A stretch of DNA of 64,000 nt, taken from NCBI RefSeq assembly GCF_023516215.1, contig NZ_CP097349.1:2852001-2916000 (forward strand), given 5' to 3'. The notes under the pieces were generated by a model, which saw only the letters and a program-made list of their open reading frames with translations, was not told the origin of the DNA and did no database searches. Shown in pieces: positions 2,166 to 4,860 of this stretch (positions within the stretch are counted from its first letter, which is position 1; every line of letters starts with the position of its first letter). This DNA comes from Cytobacillus pseudoceanisediminis (lineage in GTDB: Bacteria; Bacillota; Bacilli; Bacillales; Cytobacillaceae). Both the position numbers and the translations under genes were made by a program.

Positions 2166-2642
2166 TTAGATGAATAAGTTTACATTTCCATCTTCTGCAT
2201 CAGCCAAGTAGGCTGCTACACCAGCATATTCAACGCCATCAATAATTTCATCTGGTTTAAAGCCCAGAAGATCAACTGTCATCTGACAGGCTACCAGCTT
2301 TATATCCTGCTCTTTTGCCATTTCAATCAAATCCTTTACTGGCATCGTGTTGTGCTTTTTCATAATATCTTTAATCATTTTAGGACCCATGCCAGCCATA
2401 TTCATTTTTGAAAGACCCATTTTTTCAGGACCTCTAGGCATCATTTTTCCAAACATTTTTTCCATAAATGATTTTTTCACTTGAATAGACTCATCTTTCC
2501 TTAGAGCATTCAGTCCCCAAAAAGTGTGAAAGATTGTTACCTCATGGTCATAAGCAGCTGCTCCGTTGGCAATGATATAAGCTGCCATCACCTTGTCATA
2601 ATCTCCGCTAAATAGAACAATTGTTGTTTTCTTCTTATCCAT
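2166..2642 (-). CDS. DsrE/DsrF/DrsH-like family protein
   Basis: A 158-residue soluble protein of the DsrE-like superfamily. It has the N-terminal TTIVLFSGDYDKVMAAYIIANGAA segment of a Rossmann-like fold, then a Met/Lys-rich middle (roughly residues 60-95, KMMPRGPEKMGLSKMNMAGMG) typical of the DrsH-like subgroup, and the motif KLVACQMTVDLLGF containing the conserved Cys of sulfur-relay members. First gene of the sulfur operon, with start ATG at 2642 preceded by GAGGGGGAGAAG. The operon promoter lies 120-150 nt upstream. Role in persulfide handling is inferred from family and neighbours. Confidence 0.85.
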   Translation of the reverse strand: MDKKKTTIVLFSGDYDKVMAAYIIANGAAAYDHEVTIFHTFWGLNALRKDESIQVKKSFMEKMFGKMMPRGPEKMGLSKMNMAGMGPKMIKDIMKKHNTMPVKDLIEMAKEQDIKLVACQMTVDLLGFKPDEIIDGVEYAGVAAYLADAEDGNVNLFI

Positions 2643-2656
2643 TCTTCTCCCCCTCT

Positions 2657-2670
2657 TACCCCAATGGGTA
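2657..2670. promoter_or_regulatory. Palindrome TACCCCAATGGGTA in the 5' leader of the sulfur operon
   Basis: An inverted repeat TACCC-CAAT-GGGTA lies about 15 nt upstream of the DsrE-like start codon, next to the ribosome binding site. Its arms match those of the palindrome in the operon promoter (2769-2784). It may be a second CsoR/CstR-family operator. Not tested. Confidence 0.4.
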
Positions 2671-2763
2671 TTTATATAATCAAAAAAATATAGTTTTTTA
2701 TTGTGTAAAGAAAATCAGCAGCATCATAATCTCCTCTGCATTATTCATTCAATTACAGTTCAT

Positions 2764-2792
2764 ATAATATACCCTATATGGTATTATGTCAA
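2764..2792 (-). promoter_or_regulatory. Sigma-A promoter with CsoR/CstR-type operator in the spacer
   Basis: Read on the minus strand: TTGACA (2787-2792), a 17-nt spacer, TATTAT (2764-2769). The spacer and -10 hold ATACC-ATATA-GGGTAT (2769-2784), a near-palindrome of the kind bound by CsoR-family repressors, including the persulfide sensor CstR. A repressor bound here would block RNA polymerase, and persulfide stress would then induce the downstream sulfur operon. The repressor gene itself is not in the window. Confidence 0.65.
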
Positions 2793-2820
2793 TAACTTGA
2801 TCCAATCTTATTGTCAAAAA

Positions 2821-2840
2821 AAACACCCAAACGGGTGTTT
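2821..2840 (-). terminator. Rho-independent terminator after the HesB-like gene
   Basis: Stem AAACACCC / GGGTGTTT with loop AAAC; on the minus strand it is followed by a run of eight T. It lies about 12 nt beyond the HesB-like stop codon and separates that gene from the sulfur operon promoter. Confidence 0.85.
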
Positions 2841-2852
2841 TTAATCACTGTC

Positions 2853-3140
2853 TTAACAGCAATCACTTTCGTTGCCTAATAAGACTAGTCTTTCATTTTC
2901 CTGATCATGGTCCAGAATCATACTTTCTGTATGCTGCTTGATCTCCGGGTCAAATGCAACTTGAATTTCATTGATTGTCTCGATTATATCGTCTGCTTCC
3001 GGCTCATCCAGAGCCAGTCCAATTTGTGGGCCTCCTCAGCCAAAGCCTGCGAAATAAACTCTAATGCCACCCGTATCTTTCTCTTGAAACACTTGCTTCA
3101 ATAGGTCACGAGCTGAATCTGTAATTTTCAAGATTACCAT
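2853..3140 (-). CDS. HesB/IscA-like protein, probable selenoprotein (UGA = Sec35)
   Basis: A 96-codon reading frame, 95 residues if the in-frame TGA at 3036-3038 is read as selenocysteine. Around it the protein reads IRVYFAGFG-U-GGPQIGLALDEP; HesB/IscA-like proteins carry a conserved Cys here, and Sec-containing HesB-like proteins are an established bacterial selenoprotein family. The frame stays open for 60 codons beyond the TGA with family-like sequence (DIIETINEIQVAFDP) and ends DCC. A SECIS-like hairpin begins 18 nt after the TGA. Start is ATG 3140 (close to AAAGG) or TTG 3131, which is better spaced from it. Expected role: Fe-S or sulfur/selenium handling. The alternative is a nonsense mutation; the selA/selB/selD/tRNA-Sec genes needed for decoding are not in this window. 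Confidence 0.75.
2999..3017 (-). promoter_or_regulatory. Candidate bacterial SECIS hairpin
   Basis: Downstream of the in-frame UGA (18 nt gap) the mRNA can form a 7-bp stem CUGGCUC/GAGCCGG (one U-G pair) with apical loop UGGAU. Bacterial SECIS elements are short hairpins about 16-37 nt after the UGA with a G among the first two loop bases; this one has G in the second loop position. The stem also encodes the conserved LALDEP residues, so chance pairing cannot be excluded. Confidence 0.55.
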
Positions 3141-3322
3141 CCTTTCTTTAGTTTATAAATGGATTCAAGCTATATCAGTAACTGGTAAGTCATTAAATAA
3201 CCTATTCCAATACCCCCGCCTGTACACGTTAATATTACTGCAATACTCCTTAGGAAGAAAGTATTTAGTTTATATCCTGTCCATTTTTTAATAAACCTCT
3301 TTTTATTGCTCAACCTGAAAAA

Positions 3323-3357: not shown

Positions 3358-4769
3358 TTATAAGTATTTTCTATGAATGCTCTTCCCGTCGTAAGTGAAA
3401 AGCATATTTTTTCCTTCAACCATGGTTTCCATATGAACTCCTCTTCCCCAAAGCTGGTATACGTATGGGAGTACTTTTTCAAGATATTTAAGATCAAGCT
3501 CCACTCCTTCAAACCAATGCTTGAGGTAAAGCTCTCCATTCTTCATATAATCGCCGTCATTAACCGTCAAATACGGGAATCCTCCATTTACACGCATGCT
3601 GACAAGCTGATCCCGAACATGCTCCCACTGTTTATCAACAATTTTATAATCCTTTCCCTGCTTTTGAAAAAGGTACATATCTTCTCTCATGACAAGGTCT
3701 TTTGTTAAATAATTTCTCAAAAAGAAATATCGGATTCGATTTCACGCACCTCAAACATTTTTTCCCTGCCTGAACCTGGAACTGCACCGCGCCTCTTCAT
3801 TTCCTCCGTCGGGTTGTTATACCTCTCTTCAATATCTTCAAAAATTTTCAGGCCCAGATAATATGGATTGATTCCGGTTCTGGACGGCTGAACCACTCCG
3901 GCATTCAATTTGGCAAATTCAAGCGCTTCTGCAGATGTCAATTCCATTTCCCTTAAAATACGCTGATGCCAATAGGAAGCCCATCCCTCATTCATGATTT
4001 TTGTTTCGAGCTGCGGCCAAAAATAGAGCATTTCTTCCCGCATCATAGTTAAAATATCCCGCTGCCAGTCGGTTAGCTCCCTGCTGTAGCTTTCAATAAA
4101 TAATAGTAAATCCTTTTCGGGTTTTGGAGGGAATTTCTTTTTCTTCTTCTTTGGCTCATGCTTTTTGTTCCTTTCATCCAAACCCCATAAATCATCATAA
4201 GGGCTAGGCGCTGCCGTATCACCGCTGCTTTCATATTCATCTTCCGTACTCCAGGCGAGCTTAGGTCTCATAAGAGACGGATCAATATGTTCTTCAATTG
4301 CCAGCACTGCATCCAGGAAAGTTTCCACTTCCTTCTTCCCAAACTCAATTTCATATTGCCTGATTCTTTCGGCGGTGGCAGCCATGCTCTCTACCATGTC
4401 CCTCTTTGTGTTTTGAAAACGGACATTATTTTTAAAGAAATCGCAGTGTGCTAAAACATGCGCCACAATTAATTTGTTTTGAATAAGGGCATTGGAATCG
4501 AGCAGAAACGCGTAGCAAGGATCCGAATTGATTACAAGCTCATAAATTTTTGATAATCCTAAATCATAATGCAGCTTCATTTTATGAAACTGTTTTCCAA
4601 AGCTCCAATGCGAAAACCTGGTCGGCATGCCATAAGCGCCGAATGTATAAATGATTTCTGCAGGACAAATTTCATACCTCATTGGGTAATAGTCCAGGCC
4701 AAACCCATTTGCAATTTCAGTAATTTCCTGAATGGCATATTCCAATGACTTATTTTCTTCTTCTCGCAT
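3358..4769 (-). CDS. spoVR: SpoVR family stage V sporulation protein (one-base frameshift)
   Basis: About 470 residues, the usual size for SpoVR/YcgB proteins, which in B. subtilis are needed for proper spore cortex formation. Recognisable stretches include [54 protein letters not shown] and [17 protein letters not shown]. The frame breaks in a run of five A at 3719-3723 (plus strand); one extra base joins ESDISF to [18 protein letters not shown] and the C-terminal 120 residues. Start chosen at ATG 4769, 8 nt after AAAGGGG, rather than an upstream in-frame start without a good site. SpoVR, YhbH and PrkA are a functionally associated trio in many bacteria; the other two lie at 41-45 kb here. 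Confidence 0.92.
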
Positions 4770-4860
4770 TGCCACTCCCCTTTTAGTCCTTACCATAATC
4801 TATGAACCAACAAGAGGATTGATGAGTAGTCTCTTCATAAGCTTGTAACAAATTACATCA

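Follow-up and report, generated by a model that had tools for sequence, protein, structure and literature searches.

The soil bacterium Cytobacillus pseudoceanisediminis carries a hesB-like gene that very probably encodes a selenoprotein. The window, the whole stretch of 64,000 nucleotides analysed here, corresponds to G000:C1:2852001-2916000 in a genome of 5.69 Mb comprising two contigs. A preliminary description had proposed a HesB/IscA-like selenoprotein, an identification that gains support from the Sec-decoding machinery of the genome, a conserved SECIS-like element and the presence of Cys at the aligned site of homologues. Computation revealed the reading frame, the machinery, a conserved hairpin, a predicted fold and, in many relatives, linkage to ars genes. 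As a whole, we hold the following explanation with high confidence: the gene product would be an IscA/HesB-fold selenoprotein of 92-95 aa, with Sec insertion directed by a hairpin, in which Sec and a C-terminal Cys-Cys most likely serve as soft ligands for a metal or metalloid. The gene and its associated elements are as follows.

2853..3140, minus strand: hesB-like gene, putative selenoprotein, supported by open reading frame, homologues and IscA/HesB fold; alternative start TTG at 3131-3129
3036..3038, minus strand: in-frame TGA at codon 35, probable Sec codon, from codon comparison across 114 placed relatives
3141..3145, minus strand: AAAGG, ribosome-binding-like sequence, from sequence and homologue starts; 0 nt to the ATG and 9 nt to the TTG at codon 4
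2999..3017, minus strand: bacterial SECIS-like hairpin with a 7-bp stem and the loop UGGAU, from comparison; first base 18 nt after the UGA
2819..2842, minus strand: intrinsic terminator of the hesB-like gene, from folding; -16.2 kcal/mol, z -4.28

Reading frame and codon 35

The hesB-like frame, complement(2853-3140), lies on the minus strand, which corrects the preliminary description; recomputed on that strand, its 95 codons are indeed broken solely by TGA at codon 35, as had been claimed. The frame runs from ATG (3140-3138) through TGA (3038-3036) to the terminal stop TAA (2855-2853) and contains no further stops. The N-terminal part of the product reads MVILKITDSARDLLKQVFQEKDTGGIRVYFAGFG-U-GGPQIGLALDEPEADD, and its C-terminal end reads GNESDCC. 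The start codon is uncertain, because many homologues start at position 4 of the window frame and AAAGG abuts the ATG while standing 9 nt ahead of the TTG at codon 4; a start at TTG would yield 92 aa with Sec at residue 32. The terminator assigned earlier to this gene alone was recovered at 2842-2819, with none of 200 shuffles folding into an equally stable structure, although it is missing from the consensus terminator scan. Among named records, the closest protein match (98%) is that of Cytobacillus oceanisediminis 2691 (L023).

Codon 35 was compared across 114 placed loci, which include genomes fetched twice and reduce to 92 distinct sequences: TGA occurs in 100, TGC in 10, TGT in two and TAA in two, the latter (L058 and L095) representing one place, with no Trp codon at all. 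In alignment, residue 35 falls on the first conserved (ligand) Cys of HI1723, AQ_1857 and YfhF/IscA, and 12 natural Cys homologues likewise have Cys there, in keeping with the Cys correspondence on which the preliminary description relied. A scan of the bacterial family returned a match in 144 of 193 genomes. In 122 of them the best match had an E-value of about 1e-20 or lower (113 from the listed scan rows and nine from a second listing, codon-35 placement being checked in the fetched loci); 119 of these matches contain one TGA, one contains two (G033, frame broken), one has TAA (G010) and one has none (G032, TGT).

If the TGA were an ordinary stop, the locus would be a pseudogene or encode a 34-residue product. 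This is very improbable, since dozens of diverged loci keep frame, protein sequence and C-terminal Cys past a TGA that is itself conserved, and change after it is biased towards third positions. Across codons 47-75 of 49 representatives (TGA rows shorter than 165 nt and L061, L066, L076 and L078 dropped, rows sharing 85% identity or more merged), changes at third positions outnumber those at first positions 1.8-fold and those at second positions 2.5-fold. We therefore rejected the pseudogene, even though two decayed copies (L066 and L061) exist and public records hold pieces of 62 aa ending just before the TGA (P0052) and of 56 aa after it (P0047 and others). Decoding as another amino acid, namely Trp by near-cognate read-through or under a changed code, is scarcely credible and was likewise rejected: TGG is found in none of the 114 placed loci, the sense codons there are all Cys, and Sec accords with both the conserved hairpin and the co-occurring Sec machinery. 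We attribute the W that the full-length database relatives P0002-P0034 show at the site to gene prediction under a TGA=Trp code. A sequencing or assembly error, conceivable in a window whose neighbouring genes have frame breaks absent from L023, is rejected as having a negligible chance, because the independently sequenced named-record relatives L023-L030 carry the same-codon TGA in all eight cases (L028 with a frame break upstream of it), as do many other assemblies.

Several variants accompany these sequences. At the place with TAA (L058 / L095 6001-6276; G010:C2:43781-44056), hairpin and frame are otherwise intact, and the tRNA-Sec of G010 has the anticodon UCA despite the TAA, which reflects either a nonsense mutation of recent origin or an error. 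A second, distant HesB-type gene with the context GIG-TGA-GGPQL is present in L076, L083, L078 and L082. The TGT (Cys) copy of G032, L243 (G032:C16:87669-87929), has neither the hairpin codons nor a terminal Cys-Cys, and its short flanks contain no ars match.

Hairpin and Sec-decoding machinery

The hairpin, CUGGCUC-UGGAU-GAGCCGG, allows seven pairs. Folded as a single sequence, it is no more stable than expected by chance (z -1.08; an equally good fold arises in 31 of 200 shuffles), and the case for it was therefore built on comparison. In 49 representatives, the pairwise difference at third positions is 0.077 across codons 42-46 versus 0.53-0.58 in flanking codons. Leu codons 42 and 44 are CTG in 92 of 95 instances, versus 16 of 112 for other Leu codons in 36-84 (p 1.5e-37). 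Across 81 distinct TGA sequences, a set that includes the decayed or distant L061, L066, L076 and L078, each of the seven pairs remains intact in 77-81, and two-sided pair changes were observed once each in L137 (U-A to C-G) and L131 (C-G to U-A). When TGA and Cys sequences were compared (51 representatives of 80, without L076 and L078), the hairpin was absent from the 10 distinct Cys sequences, which have different codons there; it is absent, too, from L243, whose product is 49% identical to the window protein. The pattern TGA-N18-CTGGCTCTGGATGAG, with up to three mismatches, occurs once in the window versus 0.01 expected, and a similar hairpin sequence is visible in many Bacillota HesB-like TGA genes, as it is in the class-sample Sec copies. 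Rfam returned only sub-threshold matches at 2700-3300 (best E 0.11). The SECIS-like hairpin that had been placed 18 nt after the TGA thus stands on comparison, not on bSECISearch or its lone fold.

All components that the preliminary description had named for a check of Sec decoding score above their cut-offs in the window genome: tRNA-Sec with anticodon UCA (58.3 bits; cut-off 47), selB (374; 242), selA (552; 268) and selD (424; 125). The selD gene itself contains one in-frame TGA (TKGG-U-GCK); a second likely selenoprotein, at minimum, is therefore encoded in this genome. Sec insertion at codon 35, which we infer from these sequence comparisons, would follow the standard bacterial mechanism: SelB with Sec-tRNA (anticodon UCA) would bind the 7-bp, UGGAU-loop hairpin that lies 18 nt past the UGA, and Sec would enter at the first conserved Cys position of the IscA fold.

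Sec use had been regarded as uncommon in Bacillaceae; for this family that view is incorrect, as selA is over the cut-off in 172 of 193 genomes. The remaining 21 were checked for tRNA-Sec, which is absent in 19, the two genomes with it being 80-81% complete. Seven of these 19 genomes, which have neither selA nor tRNA-Sec, carry Cys versions, 10 have no match and two (G171 and G175) have TGA-containing relatives; none has an intact gene of the window-gene group. G171 retains a remnant of that group, its N-terminal half replaced by unrelated sequence, and both G171 and G175 contain a copy of the second, distant HesB-type gene with TGA although neither selA over the cut-off nor tRNA-Sec turned up in them, which implies that TGA forms can persist without Sec machinery. 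Conversely, a best match with TGA (E about 1e-20 or lower) occurs in 120 genomes, and selA is over the cut-off in every one of them. Cys versions occur in Sec-using genomes too (G030, G039, G105 and G127).

The formate dehydrogenase alpha model gave seven matches in the window genome (L268-L273 and one more), one of them over the cut-off, and no in-frame TGA was present in any of the seven. Formate dehydrogenase is therefore apparently not a selenoprotein there, suggesting that it is not what keeps the Sec trait in this genome.

Family placement and arsenic linkage

AlphaFold2 modelling on a 44-row alignment gave a pLDDT of 83.8, lowest at the C-terminus (mean 57), and the best Foldseek matches in the PDB were HI1723, AQ_1857 and E. 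coli IscA. TIGR00049, an Fe-S accessory model, matches 43 of 44 members, and Pfam PF01521 scores 24.4 bits, just under its cut-off of 26.3. In the broad sense used in the literature, the gene shares the features of HesB-like selenoproteins: an IscA/HesB domain, an in-frame UGA at the conserved Cys, Sec-decoding machinery in the genome and, by comparison though not by significance of the single fold, a SECIS downstream of the UGA. Curated membership does not extend to it, with 47.7 bits against a cut-off of 66.35 for TIGR01911 (E 1.8e-12) and 46.5 against 85 for NF038090. The window copy belongs to the wider HesB-like family, where its branch falls below the curated thresholds, and lies outside ars operons.

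HesB-like selenoproteins are long established as the TIGR01911 family, according to the portions of PMC1794560 and PMC13188914 consulted. As far as these describe them, such proteins share with ours the IscA/HesB domain, Sec at the first conserved Cys followed by x-G-P or similar, and a SECIS-like hairpin; the window protein differs in scoring below the cut-off, in its length of 92-95 aa, and in having relatives that usually end in Cys-Cys, many of them in ars operons. HesB genes of Cys type or unspecified type are also already known from ars operons, in the excerpts available of the following sources. The ars1 operon of Bacillus sp. CDB3, arsRYCDATorf7orf8, contains orf7, a 'putative HesB-like protein' (PMC4562236, which cites Bhat 2011 as the original CDB3 report), and an Exiguobacterium ars operon includes hesB (PMC8779447). 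An 'adhesin', orf11, occupies the corresponding place of an ars transposon in an excerpt of PMC6920998, and we take it as the same gene because Cys homologues in our comparison carry the name 'adhesin'. Like L086 and our Cys homologues, CDB3 orf7 and the Exiguobacterium hesB lie beside arsA, arsD and arsC, and CDB3 orf7 lies also beside a dual-specificity phosphatase; unlike ours, they are not called selenoproteins in the excerpts of PMC4562236 and PMC8779447, and the window copy is outside an ars operon. Our literature search, covering titles, the starts of abstracts and few subscription papers, returned no report of a Sec-form HesB gene in ars operons.

Loci were scored as ars-linked when a same-strand arsA, arsB, arsC, arsD or ars-type phosphatase match lay within 700 nt. 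By this rule, 46 of 88 Sec-type loci with neighbourhoods are ars-linked, 11 are SpoVR-linked and 31 are neither. The 88 comprise L023-L030, L066 and 79 loci that form part of the family-scan rows (L086-L104 and L153-L212, the window clade left out); among these 79, 46 are ars-linked, four SpoVR-linked and 29 neither, including L157 with ars genes 1.8 kb away. All 12 Cys homologues in the comparison are ars-linked. Many copies follow arsA within tens of bases. The window genome has three hesB copies, two of them ars-linked: L086 on C2, with arsR, arsB, arsC, arsD, arsA, trxB-like and phosphatase matches upstream, and L087 on C1, after arsR, arsB and arsC. The window copy is not of the CDB3 orf7 type, lying between SpoVR and a persulfide operon.

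Named plasmids in PLSDB yielded 19 matching records. In its gene table, which is incomplete and omits pseudogenes, four Sec-type Cytobacillus hits (TGA checked) have no feature, and the 15 other hits have one. The nine hits inspected (H1-H5, H8, H12, H15 and H19) all lie in an ars operon, TGA being present in the first four and Cys codons in the remaining five; the four Cytobacillus plasmids are closely related and do not count as independent cases. A further 28 loci, drawn almost entirely from the class sample, include 14 ars-linked copies among 19 Cys ones and three among nine Sec ones; a 29th locus had no match. The short flanks of 30 phylum-sample loci (two from the window genome and one from the same family) contain arsA once (a Cys copy), an ArsR-like gene once and a thioredoxin-reductase-like gene once. 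Overall, ars linkage is common, not general, and beyond this family the Cys form shows it more often.

These results indicate that a known, functionally unexplained selenoprotein family has a large Bacillaceae branch scored below threshold by curated models. The branch tends to escape annotation, as with the four Sec-type PLSDB hits, and the ars-operon linkage of many members leads to a concrete, testable function in culturable bacteria.

Minor observations concern other neighbours. A gene at 6321-7262 of L087, presumably encoding a SAM-methyltransferase-like protein, lies 48 nt downstream of the third hesB copy. In L100 and L104 (G083 and G073), the HesB-Sec copy stands beside genes that we take to encode a tungstate-ABC-transporter-like system and a substrate-binding-domain-regulator-like protein.

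As to function, Sec and the C-terminal Cys-Cys would, by analogy, form a soft-ligand site. Candidate ligands are Fe or Fe-S, by comparison with IscA, and As(III), to which the ars-linked relatives point. A serious contender, at somewhat less than even chances, is an Fe-S carrier like ErpA/IscA with Sec for Cys and no special arsenic role, the ars linkage reflecting repair of As(III)-damaged Fe-S clusters. The protein shares its predicted fold and first Cys ligand position with IscA, ErpA (HI1723) and SufA, nearly all members match TIGR00049, and 42 of 88 Sec-type loci, the window's included, are not ars-linked by the rule. The differences are Sec at the first ligand and the C-terminus: IscA ends in Cys-Gly-Cys (CxC), whereas 79 of 100 rows have Cys-Cys and 17 a single final Cys; the position of many copies directly after arsA also argues against this reading. 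Tentatively, and on balance doubtfully, the ars-operon form may instead be a selenium-dependent arsenic-resistance arm of Bacillaceae, in which Sec and the terminal Cys-Cys would bind As(III), either handing it over to the ArsA/ArsB pump or buffering it on the pump's behalf. Detoxification of arsenic would then, with SelD, be a main reason that these spore-formers keep the Sec code, and the window copy would be a stand-alone chromosomal paralogue, for which an arsenic role of its own has a lower chance than this full reading. The likeness to the ArsD arsenite metallochaperone, a small protein with soft ligands encoded beside arsA, is by hypothesis only, and ArsD is a separate gene in the same operons. 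In our preferred explanation, that of an IscA/HesB-fold selenoprotein, the window copy would be the chromosomal, SpoVR-linked form, the genome's two further copies being those in ars operons.

SpoVR and the persulfide operon

The neighbourhood of the window copy comprises the following elements.

3358..4796, minus strand: gene that we take to be of the SpoVR family, split by a frame break; upstream neighbour, common to some other genera
2764..2792, minus strand: promoter-like site TTGACA-17-TATTAT ahead of the persulfide operon, 11 of 12 matches; the scan background is 5 sites in 901 bases versus 3.1 expected in shuffles
2657..2670, no strand assigned: palindrome TACCCCAATGGGTA, one in the window versus 0.02 expected, presumably resembling a CsoR/CstR operator
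2166..2642, minus strand: DsrE-like gene, first in the persulfide operon, followed by TusA-rhodanese, persulfide dioxygenase-rhodanese, TusA and TauE, names that we assume in line with the preliminary description

That description had suggested a functional link to sulfane-sulfur handling, in which hesB would act with the neighbouring persulfide operon. The two are on the same strand, and the operon adjoins hesB downstream in seven of 28 loci (the window, L023-L026, L028 and L029), all of them C. firmus/oceanisediminis-like. It is absent from the other 21, including L027 with the same SpoVR-HesB-YitT order, and L089 shows one weak rhodanese-like match only. Moreover, a strong predicted terminator, the promoter-like site and the operator-like palindrome lie between hesB and DsrE, so that hesB has neither conserved adjacency nor a predicted common transcription unit with this cst-like operon. 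The link is therefore improbable, and we rejected it as the family function of hesB, the arrangement being local to one clade. We infer that the persulfide genes form an independent operon, which came to stand next to an older SpoVR-hesB pair.

The tree (95 rows and 91 columns, with L066, rows below 70 aa and identical sequences left out) places the window in a starred clade of eight rows, seven of which are labelled SpoVR-linked; 41 of its 91 inner branches are open and 18 are starred. Frame breaks at about 1160, 2060 and 3720 of the window affect the persulfide dioxygenase, TusA-rhodanese and SpoVR genes, respectively; none occurs in L023, and they are either assembly errors or mutations.
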